Virus record (IMG/VR): IMGVR_UViG_3300000265_000013
Location: 6,509-27,328 of that record
Length of the DNA: 20,820 nt
Source of the DNA: a virus
Reading direction: 5' to 3' (one strand)
Shown piece after piece: positions 1 to 19,715 of this stretch. The position numbers and the translations under genes are program-made. Position 1 is the stretch's first letter. Each line of letters begins with the position of its first letter. The notes beneath the pieces are model-generated. The model was given only the letters and a program-made list of their open reading frames with translations, did no database searches and had not been told where the DNA came from.

Positions 1-2712
1 CAAAAACTAGTTCAGTTTAAAACTACAGAAGAAGAAGTTTTTAAGTTAGAGTTTTCTACTGATAATACTAACTTTAGTGTCAATCCAGTTATTGATATTC
101 AGAAATATTACAAATATACTTTTGATGTTAGTCACTTTTCTATGAGCGATACATATCTAGATTTTTCTTCCAGTTCTAACTATAATATTTTTACTGAAGA
201 AAAAGAAACTAGTGGTATTTCTCCTGGCAATGCCGGAGCATTTGTATCTATCAAATTGGGATTTGGTCCTGCTATTTCGACAAATACCTATCAAGAAAGA
301 AAAGCAATCAATTTCCAAAATTATTTTTATTTTATTAAGGTATCTCCTAATGTTGATACTAGTGGTTCTTTCTTGAGAATTATTGACGACCCTTTAACAG
401 GTTTGAATACCGTAATTTACAATACAGATACTAAATTTGTTTATACTTTAAATGAAACTCCGTCTTATGATGGAACAGGTAATATGTCATATATTACCTC
501 AGCAAAATTAGCTATTGGAAATATACATTCAGTAAATGTAGTCAATACAGGTGAAGGGTATAGTAAAATACCTATTGTTCTTGGCGTAAATCCAACTTCA
601 GGAAATGAAGCATTAGTAGAAGCAATCTGGGATCCAGTAGAAAAAACTGTTACTGGATTTGAAATTATTAATCAAGGTTCAAATTATTCAAAACCTATTG
701 TTATATTAAGTGATTTTGATGGCAGTCAATATGAATATAAAGCATCTCAATTTTTAGGAAAGATAAGTGGTGTTGAAGTATTAAAGAAAGGTTTTGGTTT
801 TACATACAAACCAACTGTAAAAATTGTAGAATCTGATGTAAAAATTTACTTAGAATCTACTAATATTGGTTTACCACAAAATATTAAAATTAACAATCCA
901 GGTAGAGAATATAATTCTGATAATTCCCAATTAGGATCGTACAAATCTCCAGAAACATTTGTACTCAGAAATATTTCAGATAAGTTTTTTCCAGGAGAAT
1001 CAATTACTCAAATTTATACTGGAGCAACAGCTGTCATTTCTAATGATGGTTACCGAGAAGGTAGTAATTTGTTGAAGGTAGTTAACATTAATGGAATTTT
1101 TGAATCTGGATATCAAATTAAATCAACTATTGGTAATAGAACTGCCACACTATATTCACAATTTTCTACTGAATTTAATTTAGATATTAGATCTTATGTA
1201 GATAATTTTGGGTCATACCGTTCCGATAAAGGAAAACTAAGTAGTTCTAATCAACGTTTACAAGATTCTTATTTTTATCAAGACTATTCTTATGTAATTA
1301 AATCCAAGTCTTCGATTAAAGAATGGAGAAATTTAATTAAAAAAACTACTCACCCGGCTGGATTCCAGTTATTTGGTGAGATGGTAATTGATAGTCAGGC
1401 AGAATCCCCGATGCCTACTAATCAACCTTCTTTAAGTTTTGTAAGTAAAATTGAGTTACCTCCGGTACAAATTACATCTATAACTTCAAAAAAAGTTATT
1501 ACGATAATTCAGAATAAGTTAGAGTCACTTATAGTAGAAGATGGGTCTGGATCAATTTCTGTTGACACTTTTGATGCTAGTGAAACTATAACCTATAAAG
1601 TATCCTTATCTCCTGCGTTTGACGGAAGATTTGATCCTTCAACTGGACAGTTGATTGGTAATACAGAATTTACTCTTATAGACAAAAAAAATAATTCTCC
1701 TCTTGTACTATCTAAAAATGAGCAACTTTTTGTAACATTAGATGGAATTTTTCAGGAACCAGGAAAATCATACACAATTTCCGGTAACAATATTACTTTT
1801 GCTCAACCACCATTGGGACAAAGAACTGATGAAGGTCAACTAGTTGATTCAGTAAAATTTTATGGTAGAGCAATCAAATTTAAGTCATCGACTCTTAACG
1901 ATAGATATTTCAAAAAAGTTAAGTCTATTGCCGATGAATTTGATGGGATTAAAACTGATTTTAATTTATATTGGGAAGATGGAAGTATTGTAAAGACAGA
2001 TCCACTAGAAAATCTTATTGTTGCTCTTAATGGAGTAGTTCAAAAAGCAAGAATTACCGAAACAAAACCATTCAGAAATTCTTATTCTATTATCAGATCT
2101 GATGATGTTACTAAATCTGATATTATTAGATTTAGTAAACCACCCATTGATAACGAAGATGCTTATGCTCCACCAGAAGAAATACCAGAAGTTTTAAAAA
2201 ATTACGAGAAGTGTTTTATTTACACTATTGGTAGCTATGAAAGATTGACAATTAATTCACAATTATTTGAATATAGATTTGGTGGACCATACTTAATTCA
2301 AGATGAAGTAACAAATTCTATAAGAAAAATTGATGATCCAAAATATGCTTTGGTATTCATTGATGGGGTTTTACAAAGAGATACAGATTCTTATCAAATT
2401 GTTGGACCTAATATTACATTTACTCAACCATTGGGTGTATCTATTACGCCAGCTGGAAGACGAATTACTCAAAATGTTAATATTATATTAATGTATGGAC
2501 GAGATGTAGCAAAGACTTTAACTTTCTATGATTTTGAACCGTTTACATACAATAATACGATATATATTACTATTTCCGGAACTGACGTAGCAGATAATAC
2601 TCTATCTCTTATCCATAAATATTCCCATTTAATTATAATATTAAGCAAGGTACTAATATTCTTGGCAAGATTATTGGATACTCAAAAATTAATGATAATC
2701 AATGTGTTATAA
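1..2712 (+). CDS. Large virion structural protein, N-terminal piece (5' end outside window, frameshifted at 3' end)
   Basis: The frame is open from base 1. The ATG at 142 is internal, because bases 1-141 encode the same conserved-looking protein, including 'YKYTFDVSHFSM' just before it. I recognise the style (TYLDFS..NYNIFTEEKE..G..PGNAGA) from large structural proteins of T4-like cyanophages, but cannot assign a T4 gene. Visible modules are three G-x-G-Y/F beads (about 547-575, 673-700, 787-815), an 'FPGESITQ' module (about 975-1150), and three tandem modules with a 'dGv.q..sY.i' core (1609-2508). No signal peptide or membrane segment is seen in the true frame. The gene lies immediately upstream of gp8, where T4 has baseplate wedge gene 7, so a wedge role is inferred from position only. 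The reading frame degrades after about 2617: the last ~30 residues before the stop at 2712 are out-of-frame translation. The real protein continues at 2619. Confidence 0.85.
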   Translation, partial: QKLVQFKTTEEEVFKLEFSTDNTNFSVNPVIDIQKYYKYTFDVSHFSMSDTYLDFSSSSNYNIFTEEKETSGISPGNAGAFVSIKLGFGPAISTNTYQERKAINFQNYFYFIKVSPNVDTSGSFLRIIDDPLTGLNTVIYNTDTKFVYTLNETPSYDGTGNMSYITSAKLAIGNIHSVNVVNTGEGYSKIPIVLGVNPTSGNEALVEAIWDPVEKTVTGFEIINQGSNYSKPIVILSDFDGSQYEYKASQFLGKISGVEVLKKGFGFTYKPTVKIVESDVKIYLESTNIGLPQNIKINNPGREYNSDNSQLGSYKSPETFVLRNISDKFFPGESITQIYTGATAVISNDGYREGSNLLKVVNINGIFESGYQIKSTIGNRTATLYSQFSTEFNLDIRSYVDNFGSYRSDKGKLSSSNQRLQDSYFYQDYSYVIKSKSSIKEWRNLIKKTTHPAGFQLFGEMVIDSQAESPMPTNQPSLSFVSKIELPPVQITSITSKKVITIIQNKLESLIVEDGSGSISVDTFDASETITYKVSLSPAFDGRFDPSTGQLIGNTEFTLIDKKNNSPLVLSKNEQLFVTLDGIFQEPGKSYTISGNNITFAQPPLGQRTDEGQLVDSVKFYGRAIKFKSSTLNDRYFKKVKSIADEFDGIKTDFNLYWEDGSIVKTDPLENLIVALNGVVQKARITETKPFRNSYSIIRSDDVTKSDIIRFSKPPIDNEDAYAPPEEIPEVLKNYEKCFIYTIGSYERLTINSQLFEYRFGGPYLIQDEVTNSIRKIDDPKYALVFIDGVLQRDTDSYQIVGPNITFTQPLGVSITPAGRRITQNVNIILMYGRDVAKTLTFYDFEPFTYNNTIYITISGTDVADNTLSLIHKYSHLIIILSKVLIFLARLLDTQKLMIINVL
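1609..2508 (+). repeat. Three tandem 'dGv.q' beta-modules within the structural protein
   Basis: Three diverged copies lie at about 1609-1870, 1927-2150 and 2233-2508. Each carries a core resembling 'LVFIDGVLQ...SYQI' followed by 'ITFTQPP'. The visible cores are FVTLDGIFQEPGKSYTI, VALNGVVQKA...SYSI and LVFIDGVLQRDTDSYQI. A weaker fourth copy (LYFRDGILLQPTAYEYF) follows around 3195-3260 in the other half of the gene. The copies are recognisable in protein but not in DNA, so the duplication is old. Such modules are common in phage tail proteins. A structural, spacer or carbohydrate-facing role is an inference. Confidence 0.65.
2613..2630 (+). other. Frameshift site joining the two halves of the large structural gene
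   Basis: Upstream coding is in the frame of base 1. Downstream coding is in the frame of base 2619. The two frames can only be joined between the frame-0 stop TAA at 2616-2618 and the region where the upstream frame loses sense (about 2640). The join needs one extra base. The simplest fix is one more A in the AAA run at 2617-2619, giving ...IHK-IFPFNYNIKQGT.... I see no classical slippery heptamer. Confidence 0.75.
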
Positions 2713-5462
2713 CTGTTCGATCTCCAATCAATGAAGTTGTTGACGAAAGCACATCAATTGATTTTTGTAAATTAAGTGATAGTTATTCTTCAGAAACTCT
2801 TGGTGGAGTATATACTTTATCATATACGTATAAAACTGACGACGAAGGATTGAGAGTTCTTGACAAAAATGTGCCTGCGTGGTTATTTAGTGTAGAAGCA
2901 GGAACTAGAGCTTGGTACATTAAAAATAGATTAACTGCCAATCTTCTCCCTGGAGATCAAATTTTAATTGATGGAGAAAGTGAGTATCGTACTATTATAA
3001 ACACACCCGATACAGCATCAACAAAATCTTATAATGATCATAATTACATTCAAAATGAGCATTATGCTAAAGTTAAAACTACGAATTATGAAGGAGATAC
3101 AGAAGGCGAAGGTTTAAGCATTACTGCTAATGTAAATCAATATGGTTCTGTCACCACTCTAAATGTTTCTGATGTAGAATTTAATAAGAGAGATTTATCT
3201 TTATATTTCCGAGATGGAATTTTATTACAACCAACAGCATATGAGTATTTTACCACACCAGAAGTACATTTTATTCCTATTGATGGCAATGGCGGTGGAG
3301 CTAAAGCAGAAGTAATTGCTTACGGCGGACAAATTATTGATATTGTTCTTACTGAAAGCGGTAGTGGTTATACACAACCACCACGAGTTGTGGTAGCAAG
3401 AAGATATAAGAGAATTAAAGAATCTAGTCGTAAAATTGATACTTTAATTAAATTAGGAGTTGAATCTAATATAACTGGTGGTGGAGCTGTTACTAGCAGT
3501 ACTGAAATTATAATTTCTGGTGGTCCATTCAGTCAGCAATCAATTACTTCTATTGTTACTTTTGGTGGATTTGATCCAGAACTTAATACTGATAGACAAA
3601 TTACTAATATTATTTCTACTTTAAGTGGAGAAGAAAATTTAGTTAGGATGACTGACCAGAAGTTTCCAACGGAAGCTAGGGTACAGTCACCTTATATATT
3701 ACTGGAACCAATACAATATAACATCGATTTTCACCTTACTCAAATTATTGGTGGTGTTGTTGGTACAGAATCTGTCGTTACTTTACAGAGTCTTTCTAAA
3801 GAAATTACCAGTATCATTCAAATTGAATCTGATAAAGCTTTCTTACCAAAATATAGAGGATTGCCATCATATGGCGGATTGGGAACATTCTTGGATTCTC
3901 CAATCAGTAGCACATCGGAGATTGTTTATGTTGGAAATACTACTGGATTCCCAGATACTCCAAGCAGAATAAGAATTAATGGAGAACTTCTGTTCTATAG
4001 GAAAAAAGAGCAAGATAGATTCCTTAATGTAGTAAGAGGATATCAGGATAGTACCGCATCGGCACATTCACCTGGAGATCTAGTCTTACATCAACCAGAA
4101 TTCCTTACTTTACTTTCTGGTGGTATTACTATTATCAACAGTGAAGTTAGTGTTGCTCAGTCTTCAGTAACATCTATTCAAAAGACAGCACAAATTCAAT
4201 CGATTACTGAAGTTATTGATATCCAACCAAATACTTCAGAAATTAAACAAATTGTTAATCTAGAAGAATCTATTGATGTTGATGTAGTACATCAGCAAAT
4301 AACAATCATTCCTCCAGTATCATATAATATTGTTACAGAAATTCATTCTTCTTCATCTAGAGTTTCTTTGTCTACTGCTGGTATTGATGATATATTTGGA
4401 ATCAGTTCAAGTGGAACTGTTTCTATTGTTGACACTAATATAGAATTAATACAAGAAAATCAAATTCAAATTAATCCAACTGTAGAGATCTCAACCGTTT
4501 CTATTGGAAATATTGCTGTCACATCTTCATCAACTTCTAAGGTTGTCACTTCTTCTTATAATAAGACTTTAGTGACTAATGAAATTAATATTGATGTTGT
4601 TAATACAGTATCTACTATTACATCTAGTATTATAGAAAATATCGGTACTAGAATTGATAATTATTCGGCATCTATCGTTAGATTCAATAGTTTTAAAGCA
4701 TCTACAGTTTCTTTACATACTGTTGAAAATACGGAAGAACCATTTGTAATGTCTCATAATAGAGAGATTACCACATCCCTACAGGATATTAATACATTTA
4801 CTTCTACAGTTTCAGTAATTCTTGGTGGTGCTAACTTCACTGCTAATGCTGGAACCACAATTGAAAATAATTATGCTATTGTTGATTTTATTATTGAAGA
4901 ATATGTTTTAGAAAGTAGTATAGTTCTGAGAGATCAGACAATAATACCTTTAGCAGATCCATATAACGAAGTTATTCTTAGAGATGGATCTATATATAGA
5001 GTAGAAAATAGAATTCAAAATGTCCCTCTTGGATTTGAATCCTATACTCTAGGTAATGTTGGATTGACTTTAGGATCTTTTGAAAAGACTGCCTTCGCGG
5101 ATACCGGAATTTCATCTGGATTGACATTAGCAGATTTTGATAGAATTTATTCAACATTAACAATTCATGATTTTGAATTTAGATCAAATTCTGCGTTACT
5201 TGCTAATGGAGATAGATTTAATTTAGCAATTCCATCATATCAAGAACCTGTTACTATCAGTCAATTTACTGGTCAGATTGAAGCATCTATTACTGTACAA
5301 AATACAGTAAATTTCCAGGATTCTGGTTACTTATTCACTTCATCTGGTAATGTACTTCAATACACTAGTAAAACTACCAACTCTTTCGAGGGTTGTACAT
5401 TATTAAGAGGTTCAAATTCTATCACTTCTGGTGATGAAATGATTCCGTTTATTCTTGTATAA
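2619..5462 (+). CDS. Large virion structural protein, C-terminal piece
   Basis: This continues the gene from 1-2712 after the frameshift. Sense coding starts at 2619, so the TTG at 2850 is not a true start. Modules in order: a 'dGi.lqp' copy (about 3195-3260); a G-x-G-Y bead 'ESGSGYTQPPRVVV' (about 3355-3395); an 'INGELLFY...LNVVRGYQDSTASAH' module (about 3900-4090), a form common in phage structural proteins; then a long Ser/Thr/Ile/Val-rich tract (about 4140-4870) with few aromatics; and a C-terminal part (about 4960-5462) with 'LGNVGLTLGSF'. A second RG-type module (LQYT...FEGCTLLRGS) ends the protein. With the first half the product exceeds 1800 residues. The stop TAA overlaps a late-promoter motif for gp8. 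Its place next to gp8 suggests a baseplate wedge or fibre-attachment part, but no family is firmly recognised. Confidence 0.85.
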   Translation: MFPFNYNIKQGTNILGKIIGYSKINDNQCVITVRSPINEVVDESTSIDFCKLSDSYSSETLGGVYTLSYTYKTDDEGLRVLDKNVPAWLFSVEAGTRAWYIKNRLTANLLPGDQILIDGESEYRTIINTPDTASTKSYNDHNYIQNEHYAKVKTTNYEGDTEGEGLSITANVNQYGSVTTLNVSDVEFNKRDLSLYFRDGILLQPTAYEYFTTPEVHFIPIDGNGGGAKAEVIAYGGQIIDIVLTESGSGYTQPPRVVVARRYKRIKESSRKIDTLIKLGVESNITGGGAVTSSTEIIISGGPFSQQSITSIVTFGGFDPELNTDRQITNIISTLSGEENLVRMTDQKFPTEARVQSPYILLEPIQYNIDFHLTQIIGGVVGTESVVTLQSLSKEITSIIQIESDKAFLPKYRGLPSYGGLGTFLDSPISSTSEIVYVGNTTGFPDTPSRIRINGELLFYRKKEQDRFLNVVRGYQDSTASAHSPGDLVLHQPEFLTLLSGGITIINSEVSVAQSSVTSIQKTAQIQSITEVIDIQPNTSEIKQIVNLEESIDVDVVHQQITIIPPVSYNIVTEIHSSSSRVSLSTAGIDDIFGISSSGTVSIVDTNIELIQENQIQINPTVEISTVSIGNIAVTSSSTSKVVTSSYNKTLVTNEINIDVVNTVSTITSSIIENIGTRIDNYSASIVRFNSFKASTVSLHTVENTEEPFVMSHNREITTSLQDINTFTSTVSVILGGANFTANAGTTIENNYAIVDFIIEEYVLESSIVLRDQTIIPLADPYNEVILRDGSIYRVENRIQNVPLGFESYTLGNVGLTLGSFEKTAFADTGISSGLTLADFDRIYSTLTIHDFEFRSNSALLANGDRFNLAIPSYQEPVTISQFTGQIEASITVQNTVNFQDSGYLFTSSGNVLQYTSKTTNSFEGCTLLRGSNSITSGDEMIPFILV

Positions 5463-5471
5463 ATATAAATA
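5458..5471 (+). promoter_or_regulatory. Tandem overlapping T4-type late promoter for gp8
   Basis: TATAAATA occurs twice, overlapping by two bases (5458-5465 and 5464-5471). This is the T4 late consensus, read in T4 by the gp55/gp33 sigma system. The second copy starts 41 bases before the gp8 ATG at 5505. The motif overlaps the stop codon of the upstream gene (5460-5462). A purine-rich AAAGAGAG, seven bases before the ATG, serves as ribosome binding site. Confidence 0.75.
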
Positions 5472-5504: not shown

Positions 5505-5861
5505 ATGGCTGCTATTATCTCAGACAAGTTTAGAATTTTTAACGCTACCCAGTTCCTTGAGTCGCTGTCTGAGCCTTCTGGCGGCCCAGACACTTCTGCT
5601 GAAAGAACTAGGTTGTATTTCTTCGTAGGTCGTCCTCAACGATGGGATGCTTATCTAGAACTTTTCAATCAAAATGCTACAGGATTTGTAGCAGGTAACG
5701 AAGTTTATATTGGCGCTAATTATGCTAGTGCTACTTTCAAAGCAACGGTTAGAGAAGTATATGAAAATTCTCTACTTCTTCATACGGTAGGACCACTTAC
5801 TAATTCTGTTCCCACCGCAGGACAAACTCTCAAAGGATGGAACTGCCGATACCGGTGCTGA
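5505..5861 (+). CDS. gp8: Baseplate wedge protein gp8, N-terminal piece (frameshifted)
   Basis: This is the N-terminal ~112 residues of a T4 gp8-type baseplate wedge subunit. In T4, gp8 is a dimer that binds gp7, gp10, gp6 and gp53 in each wedge. The segment 'IISDKFRIFNATQF' followed by 'LYFFVGRPQRW' mirrors T4 gp8 'IVTSKFRTEKMLNF' and 'IFITFGRSEPW'. The ATG at 5505 is chosen for its AAAGAGAG Shine-Dalgarno and the late promoters just upstream. True sequence runs to about 'GW' at 5835-5840. The last residues (NCRYRC) before the stop at 5859-5861 are out of frame, and the protein resumes at 5839 in another frame. If the disruption is real, the product would be a truncated, non-functional wedge protein. 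Confidence 0.9.
   Translation: MAAIISDKFRIFNATQFLESLSEPSGGPDTSAERTRLYFFVGRPQRWDAYLELFNQNATGFVAGNEVYIGANYASATFKATVREVYENSLLLHTVGPLTNSVPTAGQTLKGWNCRYRC
5833..5845 (+). other. Frameshift site in gp8
   Basis: The N-terminal frame reads ...LKGW and the next frame resumes with GTADTGAEAL. From memory, cyanophage gp8 proteins read GW-D-GTADTGA here. The observed GGATGGAACT would become GGATGGGATGGAACT if a second copy of GGATG were present. That 5-base difference restores the frame and the missing Asp. Loss of one unit of a 5-base tandem repeat is therefore a simple explanation. It is inferred from a remembered homologue, not from an alignment. Confidence 0.7.
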
Positions 5862-7359
5862 AGCACTAACTGGCGTTTACCGTTATGCTACGGAAGATGT
5901 TCCACCTGTACCCCTTGATAACCAAACAGAAAAGTATGATGTCTATGATGACATCATTGCTGCCAAGCGTGTTACTACAACTTTTGCTCGTAGTGTAATT
6001 CGTCGTTTTAACTGGGATACATCTGCCAACCCAATCTTCGACATGTGGAAACCAGATTATTCCACAACTCCAGGATCAGGTGGTCAAGTCGGTAAATCTT
6101 CTGCTACTGGAACTACTAATATTGCTGAAGCTAAGTTCTACTTAGTTAATAGTCAGTATGAAGTATTTAAGTGTCTTTATAATGGAGAAGACTTGACTCC
6201 AGGTGGAGCTCAAGTAACGAACGAGCCCACAACAACACCATCTGGTGGATCAGGAACTTATTCCAATGGCATCTTCACCGAAGATCCTAGTTCTCCTGGT
6301 GATTACATTTGGAAGTATATGTACACCATCCCAACTGATGATGTACTACGTTTCCTTTCGACAGACTTTATGCCTATCGTTCTACCAGCGAACGCTAGTC
6401 GTGTTGCCACTGAAGCTCTCGCTACTGGCGCTCCTAATGCTGTTAATGTTGTTCTAATCGAGAATGCTGGCACTAGTTTGTCTAACGGTACTTACTATGC
6501 TCCTATTGTTGGTGATGGCACTGGCGGTAAAGTACAAATTACCGTTGCTGGTGGAGCAATTACCCAATCATCCGTAGCAGATGCTGGTCAAAATTATACT
6601 TATGGATCTGTTCCTCTCGAAACTGGTTTAACTTCGGGTGATCCATCTTGGACTGGTAGTGCTTTTGGTTTATATACTGATACTACTTTATCCGCTTCTG
6701 CTACTGGTCTTGCCACTGGTGCTCTTGAAGTAATTATTCCTCCACAAGGTGGTCATGGTTCTAACTTTGAAGAAGAACTTAATGGCAAGCGAGTTATGAC
6801 GAACATTCGTCTAACTTACGCTGAAGGTTCTGGCGACTTCCCTGTTGATAATGACTTCCGTCGTATCGGTATTATCCGTGATCCATTTGCTGCTGGTGGA
6901 TCCACGTTTGCTACTGCTGACACTTTAAGCGGTGTATATGCTGTTAAAATTAACGGTGCTACAGCAGATTTCATTCAAGATGAAACTATTTCCCAAACAG
7001 CAGCTGCTGGCGGAACTTCTTTTGGTACTGTAGTTTCTTGGGAAAGAGATTCTGGTAATGCTGGTCCTGGTGGTTCTGGTGTCCTTAAGTACATCCAGTC
7101 TCCTTCAATTCACACCGATGCTGGTGTTGTGAGATCATTTGAAAACTCTGGTAATGCTATTACTGGTACTCAATCACTTGGTTCTGGCACTGTTGATGCT
7201 ACTAGTAATGACTCTGTTGTAGGTGTCACTTTTTCTAGTGGTCTTGCTACTCCAGAAATTGGTAATAACACTGGCGAAATTATCTATGTAGAGAACCGTC
7301 GTCTTATTACTCGTGCTGCTGACCAGATTGAAGATATCAAACTTGTTATTGAGTTCTGA
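5839..7359 (+). CDS. gp8: Baseplate wedge protein gp8, C-terminal piece
   Basis: This continues gp8 after the frameshift. Bases 5839-6042 are coding without an ATG (GVYRYATEDVPPVPLDNQ, then AAKRVTTTFARSVIRRF), so the ATG at 6043 is internal. Matches to T4 gp8 are 'FYLVNSQYEVFKCLYNG', 'GDYIWKYMYTIPTDD' (T4 DGYVWEYLFEIPPD), 'FRRIGIIRDPF' (T4 FRQISIITNPL), and the C-terminus 'GEIIYVENRRLITRAADQ' (T4 GEMIYMENRPPIIMAMDQ). Joined, gp8 is about 618 residues against 334 in T4. The extra length is mainly two insertions: one (about 6390-6790) contains a G-x-N-Y bead, and one (about 6900-7250) contains a 'FIQDETISQ' module. The arginine codons are almost all CGT (14 CGT, 1 CGA, 2 AGA by my count), unlike the AGA-rich flanking genes, as expected for a highly expressed core gene. 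Confidence 0.92.
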   Translation, partial: GTADTGAEALTGVYRYATEDVPPVPLDNQTEKYDVYDDIIAAKRVTTTFARSVIRRFNWDTSANPIFDMWKPDYSTTPGSGGQVGKSSATGTTNIAEAKFYLVNSQYEVFKCLYNGEDLTPGGAQVTNEPTTTPSGGSGTYSNGIFTEDPSSPGDYIWKYMYTIPTDDVLRFLSTDFMPIVLPANASRVATEALATGAPNAVNVVLIENAGTSLSNGTYYAPIVGDGTGGKVQITVAGGAITQSSVADAGQNYTYGSVPLETGLTSGDPSWTGSAFGLYTDTTLSASATGLATGALEVIIPPQGGHGSNFEEELNGKRVMTNIRLTYAEGSGDFPVDNDFRRIGIIRDPFAAGGSTFATADTLSGVYAVKINGATADFIQDETISQTAAAGGTSFGTVVSWERDSGNAGPGGSGVLKYIQSPSIHTDAGVVRSFENSGNAITGTQSLGSGTVDATSNDSVVGVTFSSGLATPEIGNNTGEIIYVENRRLITRAADQIEDIKLVIEF

Positions 7360-7367
7360 TTCTGTTT

Positions 7368-7415
7368 TTACTCCGCTAAATACTTCAACGATAAGTAGAG
7401 TATTTGGCGGAGTAA
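7368..7415 (+). promoter_or_regulatory. 17-bp hairpin burying the ribosome binding site of the DUF4815 gene
   Basis: Bases 7368-7384 pair with 7399-7415 over 17 positions, with a single T-G wobble (7377/7406) and no mismatch. The loop is about 14 bases. The right arm contains GGCGGAG, whose GGAG (7409-7412) is the Shine-Dalgarno for ATG 7417, so the full hairpin would block initiation. The left arm contains the GCTAAATA promoter motif. No T-run follows the stem, so it does not look like an intrinsic terminator. The pairing is seen directly; the regulatory role is inferred by analogy with T4 gene e. Confidence 0.75.
7375..7382 (+). promoter_or_regulatory. Candidate late promoter for the DUF4815 gene
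   Basis: GCTAAATA is a variant of the T4 late motif TATAAATA. It starts 42 bases before the ATG at 7417, the same offset as the motifs before 5505 (41) and 20269 (40). It lies inside the left arm of a long inverted repeat. By T4 geometry, transcription would begin a few bases downstream, near 7388. Confidence 0.55.
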
Positions 7416-7416
7416 C

Positions 7417-10400
7417 ATGCCACAAAAGACAAATCTCAATGTAGCACCATATTATGATGACTATGATGCTGGCAAAAACTTTTATAAAGTCTTGTTTAGA
7501 CCTGGATATTCTATCCAGACTAGAGAGCTAACTTCTTTACAATCAATTCTCCAAAACCAAATTGAGGATTTTGGCAAGTTCAACTTTAAACAGGGACAGC
7601 AAGTCATTCCTGGTGAGGTTGGACTTAATATTAAGCTTGATTATGTCAAGTTGTCTTCTGTATCAGAAGTCGCTATAAACGAAGGCGGAAAGATCGTTTA
7701 TAAAAAATATGATATTAAACAACTCGTAGGAACACAACTCCAGGGTCTAAACTCTGGAGTTGTCGGCCGCGTAGTAAGTGCTACTTACGGATCAGACATT
7801 GAAGCAGATACTCTATTCGTAAAATATACTACTAGTGGTTCTGCTAGTAATGAATCTACTTTCAGGCAAGGAGAAACTCTAGAAGTTATTGCTGGTATCA
7901 ACACACCTCTACTTGTAGTTGGTACAGATGGCAGTGTACTTCCTACTAGTATTAATGTAGAGGATCCTACTTCAGGTAATATAGAATCATTAAGCAGTCC
8001 TGCTATGGGGTTTGCTACTGCTGTTGATGTTCAAGAAGGTGTTTATTTTGTTAATGGTTTTTTTGTAAGAAATACAAAACAACTTTTAGTTGTTGATAAG
8101 TATTACAATAAAGCATCAGCTAAAGTAGGTTTTACAATTAGTGAAAATATTGTAACGCCAGAAGAAGATGTTTCTTTGACAGATAATTCTAGAGGTTACT
8201 CTAATTCATCTGCTCCAGGTGCTCATCGTCTTAGTATTATTTTAAACCTCACAAAATTTGCTTACAACGCTAATACAGATAAGAATTTTATTCAGTTAGT
8301 TCAGATTAAGAATGGAACTGTAGAAAAGCAAGTAAAATCAGCTGATTACACTTTACTAGAAGAAACTCTAGCAAGAAGAACTTATGATGAGTCTGGCGAT
8401 TATGTTGTAGAAGATTTTGATTATGACATTAGAGAATATTACCAAAGAGAAAATAATAACGGGGTATATGCTTTAAGTACTGAAACAGGTTTAGTAAATA
8501 GAACTTATTCATCATCTCAAGCAGAAGGAAAGATGCTGCTATCAGTAAGTTCTGGTAAAGCATACGTAAAAGGATTCGAGATTGTAAATAAAGAATCCAA
8601 ATCCATCGAAGTCAATAAAGGTAGAGATACTCTATCTCGTGATAATGTAACTATCAAGACTAAGGGTCTGCCAGAGTTTAACGTAACTAATGTTTTTGGT
8701 AGTGTTCCTCTAAACACTGTTGGTAATGATATTACTGGGTATCCAACCATTTCTTTAAATAGTGTTTTTAATGATGGCACTATTGGATTTTCTGGTCTAG
8801 AACCAACCAATTATTTTAAAAATTCTGTTAATAGAAGGTCTCAGCCATTTACATTAAATCAAGCAATAAAAACAATTTATGTTGCTGTTATTCAAGAGCA
8901 ACCAGTAGAAACTTCACAACTTCCGGATGAAGTGTGGTTTGTTACCACTAGAGGAAGTGGAACTGTTGCTGGTAAAAGTGCTACCGTTATTGGAAAATCA
9001 ATTGTAAATCGTCCTGAGGTTAATCCTGCCAGCAATGCGGTGTATGCTGAATTGACAATTATTGGTGAGAAGGGAGCTCTAGATAACTTTATCACAGAGT
9101 ATGATACTGGAGAAACTGATTTCAGAAGATTTATTTACCTGTCACAATCTCTTCTAGAAACCTCATCAACTCCATATGGTTTTGTTGTTGATTATAACGA
9201 TAGTATTACGCCTATTGTTGGAGTATCAAAACCCAAAAATTTCAGATTAATTAATAGAGGCGTTGGGTTCAACCAAGACTCCGATATTACTTTGTCTAAA
9301 GGAAGATCTGGATCTGCCACTCCTTATAATGCTACTTTCGGATTTTCATACTTCAATCCAGTATTTTTTACTAGATTAAAATTAGAAAAGAAAATTGTTG
9401 CTAATACATTTTTAAACGGTAAGTATGTTTACGGTAAGGAAAGTAAAGCATATGGAGTAATAGAAAATGATTCAACTGGTAATTTCAGTGGAGTTTCTAC
9501 GTTATTTGTAACCACTCTTTCTGGTAAGTTTATTTCTGGCGAGACAATTATTGACGAAGAAAATAATGCCGTTAAGATTGCCAAGGAAAATACTATTTCC
9601 CATTTTATTGTAAACAAAAGAGGATCTAACTATAACGACTCTTCTAGTGTAATTATCAATGGAACTATTTTTGACCAATCTAAAGTTAATATAACTTTAT
9701 TTGGTGGTGCTATTGTAAAAGTATCCGTAGACAATAGGAGTGCTTTTGGACAAACATATGCTACTCCACCTGAAATTTTATTTACAGGTGATGATTCTAA
9801 TTCAGATAAATCAGTAGTAACTCCGGTATTATTTAAAGATACTGTTCTTACATATACTCCACAAAACGTTAAATCGATTTCATCAACTTTTAATAGTTAT
9901 ACATTTACAGCAGACGTTGATCTATCTTCAACGACATATGCCACTTATTCCCAAATTAGTGATTTCACATTCTTTGGTAATAAAGGGAAAAAATATATTG
10001 AATGTAATGGATTCGGTGCTGATCTATCAGGTATATTAGTTCAGGGTGATGTTATTCAATTTACTGATATCAGTAATAATGTAATCAAAAATATTGTTCA
10101 ATATGTATCTTTACCAGAAAATACAGAGAAGTCTCGTATTTACTTTGATTATGCTTTGCCTGATAATGTGACAAATGCTACTATTATTAGGTTACGTCCT
10201 AGACTTTCTAATAACTCTGCTACTTTAGTATACCCAACAGGAAGTAAGCAAGTTGCTTCTCTTATTAATGACTCTGCTGATACAAAATTTAAATATCACG
10301 CAAGAAAAGATTTTATTACAGAGTTATCTGCCAGTGGAGGTAATCTAACATTTACTGCTCAGTTACCTGTTGGTACACAAACATTTGTTAGATTTACAGA

Positions 10401-13400
10401 AAACGACTTTATTATTACAGTTCTCAGTAAAGGATCATCTACTGTAATTGAAGATGGAGATATTATTTACATTGATTCTAGATTTATTGAGGTAGAAGAC
10501 TCTGTAATTACTGCTAGTAGTGTAGTTGCTGGTGCTCTAAGAATTAAAAATTTACCATCAGATTATTTTGGCACTATTAGTGATGGAAACTACCCAACAT
10601 TAAAACTTACCGCTACGGTAGAAATCGACAAAGCACGTCCTAGACTCAAGACTGTTATAAGAAATAAAAGAGTAATTGTAGTATCCTCTGGTGATCGGGT
10701 AATTCCTGTTAGGGGACAAGACTACGATTCTGATGTTATCGAAACGTTCTCTTATTCGGACGTATTTAAACTCAAGTACATTTATGAAGGAACTACTACA
10801 AATCCTCCAGTAATTGATACTTCAGGTAATTTAATTAGTGGTACTGATGTAACTTACAAGTACAAATTTGATGATGGACAAAGAGACACTTACTATGATG
10901 TTTCAAGAATTGTATTGAAGCCTGGTTTTGATTCTCCTACTGGTCAACTTGTAATAGCATTTGATTTCTTCGAGCATTCTCAAGGAGATTTCTGTACGGT
11001 TGATTCGTATCTACATGAAGCAGGTGTTCTTTCCGAAGAAATTCCACTATTCAATTCTTCTGTCAATGGAGTAATTTCATTGAGAGACTCTATTGATTTC
11101 AGACCTAAAGTAGATGGCAACACTACAATTACTGGATTCCAAGATCAATCAATTGTAGAACTATTTGATACCACAGATTATATTACTTTCTTAGGAACTG
11201 GTGGTATTCCAACAGCAACGCCTGCTTCAGATCAGAATTTACCATTCACTGTTTCATTCAGTGAAAAACAATATTTAGATCGTATTGATGGTTTATTTCT
11301 TACCAAAAAAGGAGAGTTTATTGTCAAAGAAGGTAACTCTTCTCTAAACCCATCTAAACCAGAGTTAGTAGATGATGCTGTTTCTCTGTGCTATTTACAT
11401 ATTCCTGCTTTTACTAATAGTAGCAAAGATGTAAGAATTATTCCGGTAGATAACAAACGTTATACTATGAAGGATATTGGCAAATTAGAAAAGAGAATTG
11501 AGCGTCTGGAGTATTATACTACCCTAAGCATTCTTGAGCAACAAGCATTAAACATGCAAGTCAAGGATGAAATCGGATTGGATAGATTTAAATCTGGTTT
11601 CTTGGTAGATAATTTTGAAGCACATAGAACTGGAAACCTCAAATCAGAAGATTATAGATGTGCTATTGATACACAGCAATCTGTCTTAAGAGCACAATCT
11701 AAAGAAGATAGTTTTGTTCTTAAAGAAATTAATACTAGAGATGACCAAAGAGTTGTTTCTGGTTATGTTATTAATGATAATATTGTTACCTTACCTTTCA
11801 CAAATGTAGAACTTCTTGGTAATAATAATGCTACGAAGACTATCAATCCAAATCCATTCGTTGTTATTCAATATGTTGGAGAAGGTGTAATTCAACCCCA
11901 ACAAGATTCTTGGTATGATCAAGGTATTGCCCCATTAGTAGTTGATTCTAATACTAAACTCAATTCGATTTTCTTGGCTAAAGAAAATACCATGGAAGCG
12001 TATTCTAGTATTTACAACTCATTTATTATAAATTGGTGTGGTAGCGATTCAGGATTCCTTCCTATCGAATCTCTTGCCGGTATTAATACAGAAGATATTG
12101 AATCTACTGTACAAGCTGCTGGTGTTTCTAGTTCTTCCAACGTAAGTCCACAGAATAATGAAATAGGAAAAGGTCTTGCTACTAAAACTGTAAATGGCAA
12201 AAAAATTGCTTCTTCACTCCAGTTTTTCGCCAGATCTATTCCAGTCAAATTTGTCATGAATAGATTAAAACCAGACACTAAAGTTTATGTCTATATGGAA
12301 GGACGTAATATTGATCGTTGGGTTGTACCCGATAGTAGATTTACTGGTAAATCTGGAAACTCTTTATCAACATTTGGTGCTCCTCTAATTACTGATTCAA
12401 ACGGAAATCTTTCTGGTATTATTTTAGTTCCTGCTGGTCTTCCTCCTGTATCAAACACTAGATGGACTAGTGATGTAGATACTGTAAGGTATGACGAATC
12501 TGGAGAAGAAATTAGATTCTCCACTGGAACAAAAACTATCAGATTTACTTCGGCATCAGATGATTCGGATAAGTCAGAAGTTGATACTTATGCCGAAGTT
12601 AAATTCTATGCTTCTGGTTCTACTCCGTCCAATCCACCAAGTATTACATCGACAGCTGTCTCTTTCTTCAAAGCAAATGAAGGTGTTCAGTTAGTTGATA
12701 GCAATACTGATAATCCAATAAAACCAAATCCCCTTGCCCAAACATTCAAGATTGAAAACTTTGATGGTGGTGTAATGGCGACCGGAGTTGATCTATTTTT
12801 CAAGAACAAAAGTGAAACTATTCCTCTTAGAGCTTATTTGACTGACGTAACATCGGGCAAACCGGGTAAGAATATAATTCCTGGTACACAGGTATCACTA
12901 ACTCCAGAAACTTATTTAAAAGTTTATGTAACTGGAGAAACTGAGACTGTTACAATTAATTTAAATGAATATGTAACTGGCAAAACTTCCAATGCTTCTG
13001 GACCTATTGCTAAAGTATTTGATTCTAATTTAGTTAGAGTTGGTGATGATACGAGCAATTCGTTCTTGCTGAACAAAGAACAAGTTTATACTCTTGTACT
13101 TAATAACCACAATGGAATACAATTTAGATCAAACGAATCTTTATCAATTCCTTCTGTTACAGCATACAATGCTACAAATAATACAACATTAGGAGTATTC
13201 ATTGCCAAAGATTCTGGTAAGGTTACTGATCTAAGAGTAAGTAACGTTGGAGATAATTATGAATCTGCTTCTATTGTTATAGAAAGTCCCCAACTCCCCG
13301 GAGGATCGGCAGCAACAGGTTCAATTTCTGTGTCTGATGGTAAGTTATACAACTGTGAGGTTTCACTCTCCGGAAGGGGATATACCGAACCACCATCAGT

Positions 13401-15492
13401 TGTTGTCAAAGGAGTAGGACTAGGTGCTGCTGGAGCTGTTATTGAATCAGTTATTGAGATCGATACTCCTTCGGTAAGAATGGGTATTGCTGTAGATGAT
13501 AGTGGAGTAACTGAATCCACTACACCTACTAAATTTATGTTTAAGCATCCAGTATACTTACAAAATAATACTGAATATGCTCTTGCTGTCGAAACAGATT
13601 CTATTGAGTATGAGATGTGGGTATCCAAACTGGGTGAAACTGAAATTTCTACTAGTAATATTGTTACTACACAACCTCTACTAGGATCAGTTTATAAGTC
13701 ACAAAATACAGACAATTGGACTGAAGACCTATTTGAAGACCTTAAGTTTACTTTATATCGTGCTGAATTTACTCCAGGAACAGATGGAGAAATTGAAGTT
13801 ACTAACGAAAATCTTGGTTACGAAAAACTAGATGTATCCCCATTTGAAACTAGCGTAAGATCTGCTACTAATGCTACTTCATCTTTATTTAAGAACAATA
13901 ATTCTATTGTTAAGGTTTATCATAGAGACAATGGTTTTGAAACTACCGGAAACTCTTATGTATTTTTCAAGAATTCTGAAGATGTTGGTGGTATTTCTGG
14001 TGTCACTTTGAACCAGAGACTTTACAAGATTTCCAACTCTGGCATTGATTTCTATAACATCACAAGTCCAAATGGAGCTGGTTCGAGCATCATTGGAGGT
14101 GGAGATAAAGTTCTTGCTTCTTACAACAGAAAATTTGAAAAACTATATGCTCAAGTTCCTTATTTACAGTTTGATGGCACTAAGATTGATTCATTCGTAT
14201 CAACTACAAATATAGTTCCCGTTGATTCCAACACTAAGAATTATGTTTCATATTCGTCTTCGGAATACGAAAAAACATTCTTAGGGGAAGAGCAGTTCTT
14301 TACTAATCAAAAAGTTATTGTTTCTAGAATTAACCAAACTATGAACGGATTACCATATTCGTTAAAGTATAAATTCAAACTTTCAACATCCAATTCTACT
14401 CTATCGCCTGTTATTGATCTACGTACTGCTACGGTCAAAACAGCATCCAATAGAATAGAAAACTCTAGTGGTTATGAAGATCGTTATGGTAAGAGAGATC
14501 AAGTGCTTTCATTCTTACCTCTATACAACCTATCAATTTCTGTCACTGGCACTAACGCTGGAGAAGTAGATACCAATAAAGTTTTAATTGGTCAAACATC
14601 CAAAGCGGAAGGATTTATTACTAGTTTTTCTAATGGCATTGCTACCATTAGACTTAAAACTACTACACCATTCCAGCAAGGAGAACCATTAACTCTTATT
14701 GATGAGACTGGAGAACAGGTATCAAATGTCGCTATCACGATTACAACTATTTCTGAAATTGAATTTAATTTCAGTGTAGGATCTAATGTGATTGCTTATT
14801 CACCTCAAGATTCAAGTGTAGATTACTCGAATAAAATTAATGGTAAAGTTATTCTTTGGGATGCCGAAGATAAAATTTTAATTATCGAGAATTCATATCA
14901 ACCAATCAACGGAAACTATACAGCATCAATTTCAAGTTCTGAAGCATATACAAGAAATCAAGATAACACTAACCAGCAACCAGATATCTTCAGATCAGGT
15001 GATGTTGTACTATCTACAGGAGATGATACCCCCATATTCATTGAAATTAATGAAATCAATTATTCTACTGGTGTTGATTATGTGCCAGAAACAGATTCAG
15101 TCAATAGTTCTTCAGTTGCTAAGTATGTAACCAAGGAAGTCTTTATTGATAATGCTGGATCTGCCATTGATGTAAGATCTACTATGAATCTCACTGATAT
15201 AGAAAATGTCAAAATTTATTATAAAATTAGAGAGTCTTCTAGTTCAGCAAACTTTAGTGACATCAACTGGGTTCCATTCAATAAAAATGGAAATCCTGAT
15301 GTAAATAACCTAGCTACTCCATCAAACTCAATTTCGGGTCAGTTTGAAAAACAGCAAGATTATCAAGAATTAATTTATAGTGCTTCAAATCTTCCTGAGT
15401 TTACATCTTTTGCTGTAAAAATTATTATGAAGACTGATAATCCTTCATATGTACCAAAAATTCAAGATCTACGAGTTATCGCTTCATATTAA
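7417..15492 (+). CDS. Giant DUF4815-type virion structural protein (2691 aa)
   Basis: This is an intact gene. The N-terminus (PQKTNLNVAPYYDDYD, then FRPGYSIQTRELTSLQSILQ) is the DUF4815 signature I know from T4-like cyanophage structural proteins, with 'VYFVNGFFV' near residue 209 and 'AYVKGFE' near 382. Further landmarks are a coiled-coil-like 'KLEKRIERLEYY' near 1356, 'INWCGSDSG' near 1538, 'KPDTKVYVYMEG' near 1618, 'NPLAQTF' near 1771, and a C-terminus ending 'IQDLRVIASY'. G-x-x-Y/F beads occur at about 9256, 9618, 13243 and 13372. 'F..GE' modules lie at about 9440-9560 and 14580-14740. The gene follows gp8, where T4 has genes 9 and 10, so a peripheral baseplate or fibre-connector role is likely but inferred. 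The start is fixed by GGAG five bases upstream, inside a hairpin. The stop overlaps the next ATG (TAATG). Confidence 0.92.
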   Translation: MPQKTNLNVAPYYDDYDAGKNFYKVLFRPGYSIQTRELTSLQSILQNQIEDFGKFNFKQGQQVIPGEVGLNIKLDYVKLSSVSEVAINEGGKIVYKKYDIKQLVGTQLQGLNSGVVGRVVSATYGSDIEADTLFVKYTTSGSASNESTFRQGETLEVIAGINTPLLVVGTDGSVLPTSINVEDPTSGNIESLSSPAMGFATAVDVQEGVYFVNGFFVRNTKQLLVVDKYYNKASAKVGFTISENIVTPEEDVSLTDNSRGYSNSSAPGAHRLSIILNLTKFAYNANTDKNFIQLVQIKNGTVEKQVKSADYTLLEETLARRTYDESGDYVVEDFDYDIREYYQRENNNGVYALSTETGLVNRTYSSSQAEGKMLLSVSSGKAYVKGFEIVNKESKSIEVNKGRDTLSRDNVTIKTKGLPEFNVTNVFGSVPLNTVGNDITGYPTISLNSVFNDGTIGFSGLEPTNYFKNSVNRRSQPFTLNQAIKTIYVAVIQEQPVETSQLPDEVWFVTTRGSGTVAGKSATVIGKSIVNRPEVNPASNAVYAELTIIGEKGALDNFITEYDTGETDFRRFIYLSQSLLETSSTPYGFVVDYNDSITPIVGVSKPKNFRLINRGVGFNQDSDITLSKGRSGSATPYNATFGFSYFNPVFFTRLKLEKKIVANTFLNGKYVYGKESKAYGVIENDSTGNFSGVSTLFVTTLSGKFISGETIIDEENNAVKIAKENTISHFIVNKRGSNYNDSSSVIINGTIFDQSKVNITLFGGAIVKVSVDNRSAFGQTYATPPEILFTGDDSNSDKSVVTPVLFKDTVLTYTPQNVKSISSTFNSYTFTADVDLSSTTYATYSQISDFTFFGNKGKKYIECNGFGADLSGILVQGDVIQFTDISNNVIKNIVQYVSLPENTEKSRIYFDYALPDNVTNATIIRLRPRLSNNSATLVYPTGSKQVASLINDSADTKFKYHARKDFITELSASGGNLTFTAQLPVGTQTFVRFTENDFIITVLSKGSSTVIEDGDIIYIDSRFIEVEDSVITASSVVAGALRIKNLPSDYFGTISDGNYPTLKLTATVEIDKARPRLKTVIRNKRVIVVSSGDRVIPVRGQDYDSDVIETFSYSDVFKLKYIYEGTTTNPPVIDTSGNLISGTDVTYKYKFDDGQRDTYYDVSRIVLKPGFDSPTGQLVIAFDFFEHSQGDFCTVDSYLHEAGVLSEEIPLFNSSVNGVISLRDSIDFRPKVDGNTTITGFQDQSIVELFDTTDYITFLGTGGIPTATPASDQNLPFTVSFSEKQYLDRIDGLFLTKKGEFIVKEGNSSLNPSKPELVDDAVSLCYLHIPAFTNSSKDVRIIPVDNKRYTMKDIGKLEKRIERLEYYTTLSILEQQALNMQVKDEIGLDRFKSGFLVDNFEAHRTGNLKSEDYRCAIDTQQSVLRAQSKEDSFVLKEINTRDDQRVVSGYVINDNIVTLPFTNVELLGNNNATKTINPNPFVVIQYVGEGVIQPQQDSWYDQGIAPLVVDSNTKLNSIFLAKENTMEAYSSIYNSFIINWCGSDSGFLPIESLAGINTEDIESTVQAAGVSSSSNVSPQNNEIGKGLATKTVNGKKIASSLQFFARSIPVKFVMNRLKPDTKVYVYMEGRNIDRWVVPDSRFTGKSGNSLSTFGAPLITDSNGNLSGIILVPAGLPPVSNTRWTSDVDTVRYDESGEEIRFSTGTKTIRFTSASDDSDKSEVDTYAEVKFYASGSTPSNPPSITSTAVSFFKANEGVQLVDSNTDNPIKPNPLAQTFKIENFDGGVMATGVDLFFKNKSETIPLRAYLTDVTSGKPGKNIIPGTQVSLTPETYLKVYVTGETETVTINLNEYVTGKTSNASGPIAKVFDSNLVRVGDDTSNSFLLNKEQVYTLVLNNHNGIQFRSNESLSIPSVTAYNATNNTTLGVFIAKDSGKVTDLRVSNVGDNYESASIVIESPQLPGGSAATGSISVSDGKLYNCEVSLSGRGYTEPPSVVVKGVGLGAAGAVIESVIEIDTPSVRMGIAVDDSGVTESTTPTKFMFKHPVYLQNNTEYALAVETDSIEYEMWVSKLGETEISTSNIVTTQPLLGSVYKSQNTDNWTEDLFEDLKFTLYRAEFTPGTDGEIEVTNENLGYEKLDVSPFETSVRSATNATSSLFKNNNSIVKVYHRDNGFETTGNSYVFFKNSEDVGGISGVTLNQRLYKISNSGIDFYNITSPNGAGSSIIGGGDKVLASYNRKFEKLYAQVPYLQFDGTKIDSFVSTTNIVPVDSNTKNYVSYSSSEYEKTFLGEEQFFTNQKVIVSRINQTMNGLPYSLKYKFKLSTSNSTLSPVIDLRTATVKTASNRIENSSGYEDRYGKRDQVLSFLPLYNLSISVTGTNAGEVDTNKVLIGQTSKAEGFITSFSNGIATIRLKTTTPFQQGEPLTLIDETGEQVSNVAITITTISEIEFNFSVGSNVIAYSPQDSSVDYSNKINGKVILWDAEDKILIIENSYQPINGNYTASISSSEAYTRNQDNTNQQPDIFRSGDVVLSTGDDTPIFIEINEINYSTGVDYVPETDSVNSSSVAKYVTKEVFIDNAGSAIDVRSTMNLTDIENVKIYYKIRESSSSANFSDINWVPFNKNGNPDVNNLATPSNSISGQFEKQQDYQELIYSASNLPEFTSFAVKIIMKTDNPSYVPKIQDLRVIASY

Positions 15493-15692
15493 TGAAATAT
15501 TTAAAAGTCGAAGGTCACGAAAATCTTTACCGTGACATGAATACGGGAGCAATCATTAACACAGACAAACCCTCTCCTAGAAACTTTTCTAGTACATTTA
15601 ACAATACACTAGAAGACATAAATACTTTGAAGGAAGAATTATCTGAAATCAAACTACTTCTTAGAGAGATCGTAAGAAATGCCAGCAATTAA
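15492..15692 (+). CDS. Small coiled-coil phage protein (66 aa)
   Basis: The ATG shares a base with the stop of the giant gene upstream (TAATG), pointing to coupled translation. The last 14 bases overlap the start of the next gene. The N-terminus 'MKYLKVEGHENLYRDMNTG' is a pattern I recall in small proteins next to structural genes of T4-like cyanophages. The C-terminal half (about residues 38-62) has heptad-spaced Leu/Ile (LEDINTLKEELSEIKLLLRE), consistent with a short coiled coil. There is no signal peptide or membrane segment. The function is unknown. The tight position between two large structural genes suggests a small structural or assembly component. Confidence 0.82.
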   Translation: MKYLKVEGHENLYRDMNTGAIINTDKPSPRNFSSTFNNTLEDINTLKEELSEIKLLLREIVRNASN

Positions 15693-18117: not shown

Positions 18118-19715
18118 ACAATAGTATTACTATTACTCCATCAACAAATCAAGTTGTAAAGGTAGATAGCGACACTGCTTTAATTATTCCTAGCGGACTA
18201 TCTGCCGAGAGACCAACAACTCTTGCTGAAAATGGTGCTATTAGATTTAACACAGAAAATGGACAATATGAAGGTTATAGTGCTGCCACAACTTCGTGGT
18301 CTTCTTTAGGTGGTATTAGAGATATTGACGGCAATACATACATCGAAGCAGAAGCATCAACTGGTGCTAATGATAACATTTTATATTTTTATAACGATGG
18401 CAACAATACTTTACAACTAACTCCACAAAAATTAGATTTTCTTGCCGTCAAGACTATTTCTTCGTCCAAAATTGGATTGCCTGCTAATACACTGTATAGT
18501 TCAAATCAAAATTATACTGTAGGCGATTACGTAAGATACGAGAAAAATTTATATGAAGTTACTGTGTCTGGTACTTCAGGTACTTCTGGAAATGAACCCG
18601 TTCATACTTCAGGAGCAGCTACATCAGGAACAGTAGAATTTACTTGGTTTGCCATTGCTGTTGATGATCTTATATTTACTGAAATTGATGAAGTAAAACT
18701 AACACAAAACACTCAACTATCAATTGATGGTAAATTGAGGTTGTCTGGTGATACAATTTCTACTGATGTTGGCGATTTAATTATTTCACCAAACTCTGGT
18801 CAAAAAGTAAACATTTCATCTACATCTTCACTAGCAATTCCATCTGGACAAACTGGACAAAGAGGAACACCAGCATCTGGATCTATAAGATTTAACACAG
18901 ATCTCGAACAGTATGAAGGATATATTTCTTCCAACTCACAGTGGTCTTCCCTCGGTGGTGTTAGAGACGTTGATGGAAATACATATATCATTCCAGAATC
19001 TATTCCAGGAGCAAATGAAAATACTCTATATTTTTATAATGATGGATCAAATTCATTAGATGTCAATCGACAAAATATTATTTTAAGAACTGTCAATAGA
19101 ATTGAATCAACTGAATTAGAAATTGATTGTCCAGAACTTACGTTTGTTAGTCAAGCGATGACAATCCGAAATGATCAAATTAATTCCACAGATAGTTTTA
19201 TTTTCTCAAGTAGAGATAATTTGGATATTGGTCATTCCACAGGTCTTGTAACAACTCCTCTATTGAGACTAACAAATACAGGAGAATTTCAGGTAAATAC
19301 TGGATTTGGAACTTCTTCAAATTCATACACAAAAGTATTAGATGAAACTCTAACATTGTTCAATCTAAGAGATGTAGAAACAGTAACATCAGATTTATTA
19401 TTAGAAAAAAATGTAACAAACACTGGTACATACACAATTTTTAATCCAACAGAAGTTTCTTCTGCTAAAATGGTGGTTTCCATTCACAATCAATCTTCAA
19501 ATCATATACAAGTTAACGAGTATTTAATTACTCATTTCGGAACTGATATTTTCCACACAGAATATGGAGTTGTAAACACAGGTGAAATTCAGGCATCGGA
19601 ATCTTTTGATTTTGATGTTAATGGGAATGTTATTGTCACCTTCACATTAGATTCTGGTTTGGCAGCAAATAATATTGTAAATATTACTGTAGTAGTAAAT
19701 TCTATTAGGAAATAA
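18081..19715 (+). CDS. Modular fibre-like structural protein, C-terminal piece
   Basis: This continues the gene at 15679 after the frameshift. Coding sense begins at 18081, so the TTG at 18477 is internal. It contains two copies of a module reading 'IRFNT...QYEGY...WSSLGG.RD.DGNTYI' then 'LYFYNDG' (about 18150-18420 and 18800-19065). I recognise this module from cyanophage tail-fibre-like proteins. Between the copies lies 'YTVGDYVRYEKNLYEVT' followed by 'SGTSGNEPVHTSG' (18489-18670), a compact module common in phage fibres that recalls carbohydrate-binding folds. The C-terminal ~150 residues (from 'LTLFNLRDVE') form a distinct end domain. Joined, the protein is about 1345 residues. The stop TAA is two bases from the next ATG. 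Fibre or baseplate-appendage function is inferred from these modules. Confidence 0.87.
   Translation: MINPNSDISSTVNNSITITPSTNQVVKVDSDTALIIPSGLSAERPTTLAENGAIRFNTENGQYEGYSAATTSWSSLGGIRDIDGNTYIEAEASTGANDNILYFYNDGNNTLQLTPQKLDFLAVKTISSSKIGLPANTLYSSNQNYTVGDYVRYEKNLYEVTVSGTSGTSGNEPVHTSGAATSGTVEFTWFAIAVDDLIFTEIDEVKLTQNTQLSIDGKLRLSGDTISTDVGDLIISPNSGQKVNISSTSSLAIPSGQTGQRGTPASGSIRFNTDLEQYEGYISSNSQWSSLGGVRDVDGNTYIIPESIPGANENTLYFYNDGSNSLDVNRQNIILRTVNRIESTELEIDCPELTFVSQAMTIRNDQINSTDSFIFSSRDNLDIGHSTGLVTTPLLRLTNTGEFQVNTGFGTSSNSYTKVLDETLTLFNLRDVETVTSDLLLEKNVTNTGTYTIFNPTEVSSAKMVVSIHNQSSNHIQVNEYLITHFGTDIFHTEYGVVNTGEIQASESFDFDVNGNVIVTFTLDSGLAANNIVNITVVVNSIRK
18150..19066 (+). repeat. Duplicated 'RFNT..QYEGY' fibre module flanking a small binding-type module
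   Basis: Copy 1 (about 18150-18420) has IPSG, 'IRFNTENGQYEGY', 'WSSLGGIRDIDGNTYI' and 'LYFYNDGNNTL'. Copy 2 (about 18800-19065) has IPSG, 'IRFNTDLEQYEGY', 'WSSLGGVRDVDGNTYI' and 'LYFYNDGSNSL'. The copies are about 650 bases apart and clearly homologous, with DNA similarity still visible. The intervening 18489-18670 segment is a different module. This indicates an internal duplication within the fibre gene. Confidence 0.8.

Follow-up and report, generated by a model that had tools for sequence, protein, structure and literature searches.

A hairpin that houses a late promoter and hides a ribosome binding site probably insulates a giant baseplate gene of a T4-like cyanophage from gp8 transcription

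The window analysed here, a stretch of 20,820 nucleotides, comes from a virus record of 27,328 bases and carries a T4-like cyanophage structural cluster. Directly upstream of its gene for a 2691-aa DUF4815 protein lies a hairpin whose left arm contains a late promoter and whose right arm contains the Shine-Dalgarno (SD) sequence. We estimate a chance of roughly three in four that this hairpin, which sequesters the ribosome binding site (RBS) and from which the promoter exempts its own RNA, insulates the giant baseplate gene from transcription of the upstream gene gp8. RNA reading through from gp8 would hold both arms and fold into an 18-bp stem burying the SD sequence, and we propose that the 2691-aa cistron is therefore poorly translated from it. 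RNA initiated at the late promoter near 7388 would lack the left arm and leave the SD sequence free; thus, most of the protein would derive from transcripts of its own late promoter. In relatives, an intrinsic terminator just upstream of the promoter would give equal separation. Such a decoupling from gp8 transcription had been predicted earlier and is supported by the fold, the start geometry, the precedent of phage T4 and the comparative pattern among relatives. From these we infer the start site, the silencing of translation in vivo and the benefit of the hairpin.

The gap between gp8 and the DUF4815 gene comprises 57 bases, nearly all of which are filled by an inverted repeat (Table 1). 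Its 17-nt arms, with 14 nt between them, are 94% complementary with one G-U pair; no other close inverted repeat in the window is as long. RNAfold calculated an 18-bp stem of -26.2 kcal/mol (z = -5.6), and equal stability was reached in 0/200 shuffles. The right arm ends at 7415 and only a single base, C7416, separates it from the ATG at 7417. Sequence and fold confirmed the original prediction of a 17-bp inverted repeat with one wobble, the promoter in its left arm and the SD sequence GGAG in its right arm. An Rfam scan gave no match at the gathering score. The hairpin was rejected as an intrinsic terminator because C-ATG, and not a U-tract, comes after the stem.

Table 1. Features of the gp8-DUF4815 region in the window and late-promoter motifs within terminators of cyanophage genomes.
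Feature	Position	Strand	Basis
Overlapping late-promoter-like motifs ATAAATATAAATA upstream of gp8	5459..5471	+	Pattern matches; also in L001-L003
Baseplate wedge gene gp8, from which read-through RNA would come	5505..7359	+	PF09215 and phrog_438 matches
Left (5') arm of hairpin	7368..7384	+	RNAfold stem and inverted-repeat search; end given as 7384/7385
Late promoter GCTAAATA within left arm	7375..7382	+	Motif pattern; form shared with Aeh1 late promoter
Loop	7385..7398	+	Fold; length and sequence differ among relatives
Predicted late transcription start	7388, inside loop	+	Deduced from CTAAATA starting at -12 (PMC1524935)
Right (3') arm of hairpin, SD included	7399..7415	+	RNAfold stem and inverted-repeat search
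Shine-Dalgarno GGAG	7409..7412, 4 nt before ATG	+	Sequence; predicted paired on read-through RNA, free if the RNA 5' end is at least 7378
Gene of 2691-aa DUF4815/VrlC-like baseplate protein, regulated cistron	7417..15492	+	PF16075 E 4.7e-46; phrog_358
[ACT]TAAATA in loop/5' arm of intrinsic terminator, ATG directly after	S-H9-1 (MW117966) 103808, 146588		Motif scan
[ACT]TAAATA in loop/5' arm of intrinsic terminator, ATG directly after	S-PM2 (AJ630128) 66785		Motif scan
[ACT]TAAATA in loop/5' arm of intrinsic terminator, ATG directly after	S-RSM4 (FM207411) 87390, 44490		Motif scan
[ACT]TAAATA in loop/5' arm of intrinsic terminator, ATG directly after	Syn1 (GU071105) 104708, 143034		Motif scan
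[ACT]TAAATA in loop/5' arm of intrinsic terminator, ATG directly after	Sf-FR1 (PV340855) 105884		Motif scan

Homologues of the DUF4815 protein carry the VrlC annotation, and VrlC is considered part of the two-layered baseplate in pelagi- and cyanomyophages (PMC7029224). The gp8 frame is broken near 5840 in the window, where a 5-base gap was found relative to L001 and L002, both with an open gp8 frame; this break is probably a sequencing or assembly error. Large virion-protein genes at 142-5462 and 15679-19715 are split across frames. Two ORFs of the split genes both match phrog_4406, and the 15679-18117 ORF stops early and is picked up again at 18477, which suggests further indels.

In the T4-like phage Aeh1, the late promoter has been predicted as CTAAATA starting at -12 with a or g before it (PMC1524935; PMC2988020). 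The sequence GCTAAATA, with CTAAATA at 7376-7382 inside the left arm and a G in front, fits this form exactly. Transfer of the Aeh1 geometry places the putative +1 of the window at 7388, the same position that had been predicted for the mRNA start. Hence, as in a gene-e-type leader, the 5' arm contains the late promoter and the predicted +1 falls past the arm end at 7384/7385. With 5 occurrences in the window against 7.8 expected, CTAAATA shows no enrichment, and its meaning derives from position and conservation instead. It is invariant among 24 aligned hairpin-class leaders, and all hairpin-type and terminator-type leaders carry CTAAATA or ATAAATA 39-48 nt upstream of the ATG.

RBS occlusion was calculated as the opening energy, that is the free energy needed to unpair positions -11 to +3 covering RBS and start. 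The computed value was 23.5 kcal/mol for read-through RNA versus 6.9 kcal/mol for RNA starting at 7388. When the 5' end was moved stepwise, occlusion was 23 for a start at 7368, 7.5 at 7376 and about 6.5 beyond. It had thus disappeared once the 5' end passed approx. 7376, 12 nt upstream of the predicted start. The computed folds therefore bear out the earlier claim that read-through RNA would form the full hairpin, with the SD sequence paired in the long transcript, and that RNA from 7388 would free the SD sequence. Shuffling of the 5' flank reproduced the observed occlusion in 0/500 cases, and in 2/500 cases when the promoter core was kept fixed. In a 200-kb relative (G001), the DUF4815 start had the highest occlusion among 189 ORF starts (24.5; next 16.0) and displayed the largest drop from read-through to late RNA among 39 late-promoter starts (17.6; next 6.5). 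The identical calculation for the proven example, T4 gene e, which ranks first among the T4 late-promoter starts by this metric, yielded 15.5 for read-through RNA and 1.9-4.6 for late RNA, compared with the stronger predicted occlusion of 23.5 at the DUF4815 start.

To compare relatives, 217 leaders of the DUF4815 gene were gathered, of which 111 are distinct over 80 nt. Class H leaders, found in the window clade and several others, have the late promoter in the left arm, the SD sequence in the stem and no terminator. Among the leaders compared, they were seen in metagenomic contigs only; the isolates examined all belong to the other three classes. In class T (S-RSM4, S-H9-1, S-B43, ACG-2014e/h/i, S-CAM4 and S-WAM2), gp8 and the promoter are separated by an intrinsic terminator, for example CCCCCGAGAGATCGGGGGATTTTTTTT, which consists of its own GC stem plus a T8 run upstream of the hairpin position; most leaders keep the upper stem only. 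The Vellamovirus-like class V (Syn1, S-PM2) exhibits a small promoter hairpin that leaves the RBS free. In L090, L094 and L182-L214 this hairpin, for example TTCCTAACC-TCCTAAATAA-GGTTAGGAA, excludes the RBS, and some of these leaders repeat AACGTTAG. Promoter, hairpin and terminator are all absent from class C, in which the gap to gp8 is usually short (S-CAM1, S-CAM3 and many contigs). Three leaders (L033, L034 and L107) lack late promoter and terminator, yet another stem extends to the start region; these stems are possibly relics or another control.

The comparison between hairpin and terminator was restricted to leaders with a late promoter and an SD-type RBS. Such leaders contain either a terminator, combined with a decayed lower stem and a mostly free SD sequence, or no terminator and a stem that usually covers the SD sequence. 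The median occlusion drop was 14.9 in class H (n=34) versus 0.9 in class T (n=36), and a similar separation was obtained under other RBS definitions. On the protein tree of the DUF4815 gene the leader classes need 12 changes, so that repeated switching of the leader state is probable. In 8/8 sister contrasts, hand-picked on a tree with weak forks, the hairpin leader was more occluded than the terminator leader (two-sided sign test, 0.008). An independent-pairs test at several occlusion thresholds, with only 3 pairs on strongly supported branches, was not significant. The clearest pair, L054 and L050, is identical from CTAAATA through ATGCCTCAG. In L054, TTTTTACTCCG in front completes the stem and there is no terminator; in L050, a terminator is followed by ATCTCTA and the lower stem is lost. 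In the hairpin-class leaders, the segment exchanged against the terminator is the SD complement (ACTCCG, ACTTCG). Terminator-bearing leaders have lost this flank complementarity; their upper stem is kept and covers little of the SD sequence. L030, L103 and L071 are counterexamples, having no terminator, yet little occlusion. An SD-complementary piece is present where the terminator is absent, and in our view no other finding argues more strongly for selection on the lower stem to prevent expression from read-through RNA. Together with the sister contrasts, the hairpin/terminator pattern thus supports insulation from read-through.

The exchange of hairpin against terminator would be predicted equally well if the stem mainly marked or protected the 3' end of the gp8 mRNA, or formed an RNase processing site, in place of the terminator and with SD burial as a by-product. 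The Vellamovirus-type promoter hairpin, which excludes the RBS, is in line with this reading. We consider it improbable nevertheless, as the missing U-tract argues against intrinsic termination, the exchanged piece is complementary to the SD sequence and occlusion exceeds that of flank-shuffled leaders in most hairpin-class lineages.

Conservation of the arms was analyzed at several distances. The arms of the window and L004 are identical, while their alignment of gp8 plus leader is 78% identical. Among the aligned leaders, 85% standard pairs were counted in register versus 31-52% when one arm was slid against the other. One-sided changes that preserve pairing do so as G-U. L032 carries a change from U-A to C-G, with GGGG as SD sequence and ACCC in the left arm. 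In the 24-leader alignment only 2 cells had changed on both sides, not above shuffles, and RNAalifold predicted no consensus pair from the leader alignment. A covariation test has little power here because promoter and SD sequence pin the arms. The compensatory-change check suggested by the original prediction is thus uninformative, with double changes too few to prove an RNA stem; the case for the stem is built instead on the exchange of its lower part for a terminator.

The upper repeat CTAAATACTAG/CTAGTATTTGG is retained in terminator-bearing leaders with weak SD burial, and the operator bound by T4 I-TevI covers the late promoter of its own gene (PMC2988022), both of which would suit an inverted repeat that works as DNA, for example as the operator of a dimeric regulator overlapping the late promoter. 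However, G-U pairs, present in 24/24 leaders at columns 16-48 and in 7/24 at columns 12-52, break DNA symmetry and keep RNA pairing, and the arm sequences vary by lineage (L032/L103), making a DNA function very unlikely. Equally small is the chance of an accidental pairing by common descent, the right arm being kept as SD sequence and the left as promoter: covariation not above shuffles and near-identical leaders within clades agree with it, but shuffles with fixed promoter core seldom reach the observed occlusion in the window or in several other lineages (left flank, 0-1/200 in L003, L028, L032, L038, L054, L076, L125 and L172), and the flank of terminator-bearing leaders lacks complementarity.

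If the hairpin is an insulator of translation, as we favor, its purpose is more likely dosage insulation from a co-expressed neighbour than timing, since gp8 itself belongs to the late virion genes and has late-promoter motifs ahead of it. The likely benefit is that the dosage of a very large protein is controlled relative to gp8. Early read-through into the gp8-DUF4815 region may also occur.

A related arrangement was found at terminators. A scan of five cyanophage genomes revealed 104 terminator-like hairpins; in 7 of them, a late-promoter motif lies within the loop or the 5' arm and an ATG comes close behind. Five permuted control motifs gave 0 and the reversed motif 2 such cases, and the same scan of T4 detected none among 26 hairpins. 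The cases comprise the gp13 leaders of S-PM2 and Syn1, the 'neck protein' leader in S-H9-1, an identical sequence in S-RSM4, and a gene after mazG in Syn1 and S-H9-1; Sf-FR1 has a gp13-type case. Read-through RNA would terminate at these leaders, while RNA from the internal promoter would lack the 5' arm and form no terminator. At Sf-FR1 152937 and S-PM2 115200, a late-promoter motif lies immediately next to the 5' arm of a terminator, and the T-run of this terminator stops at the ATG of a gene of approx. 115 aa or close to it.

We give about even odds to a general class of self-exempting insulators in T4-like cyanophages, in which a late promoter in the 5' half of a read-through-blocking hairpin (hiding the RBS at DUF4815, terminating at gp13 and one other gene) would allow late genes packed head to tail to be expressed independently, with RBS hairpin and terminator interchanging in evolution. 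The occurrence in marine cyanophages of an apparently selected, terminator-exchangeable hairpin at a core virion gene suggests that adjacent late structural genes are uncoupled, and not only delayed on early messages. The many natural pairs of hairpin and terminator leaders provide material on why the message of a neighbour must not yield the giant baseplate protein.

Hiding of an RBS by a late-promoter hairpin is textbook biology of T4, and the logic of gene e, proposed as precedent, matches in arm layout and computed occlusion. Both leaders share a late promoter in the 5' arm, an SD sequence in the 3' arm and a late RNA without the 5' arm. Lysozyme synthesis from long gene e transcripts is reported to be strongly reduced (PMC3014915). 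In contrast to DUF4815 with its late virion neighbour gp8, gene e is kept silent on early transcripts so that lysis does not set in prematurely. The hairpins of T4 soc, 49, I-TevI/II/III, segB and Aeh1 mobE also sequester the RBS on long transcripts, and for the homing endonucleases of this set, RNA from the late promoter is free of the inhibitory arm (PMC2988022, PMC3014915). In the T4 cases, a late gene is kept silent on transcripts of the early or middle class (PMC2988022). The set thus differs in the transcripts concerned; it includes no cyanophage gene, and replacement by a terminator has not been reported for it. Our T4 survey also detected two divergent high-scoring starts at 116428/116479, which we take to be the region of the baseplate genes 25 and 26. 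These share RNA structure at the translation start, but they are other genes and insulation from gp8 is not described. In the cyanophage gp13 leader, a hairpin would likewise block read-through RNA and cannot be formed by internal-promoter RNA; there it would block transcription, whereas the DUF4815 hairpin would block translation. Our literature search found no promoter-bearing RBS hairpin described in cyanophages; the 36-bp inverted repeat described in the psbA 5'-UTR of S-PM2d belongs to a different gene (PMC5931967). Compared with T4, the new features are that the upstream gene is itself late and that hairpin and terminator appear to be interchangeable.
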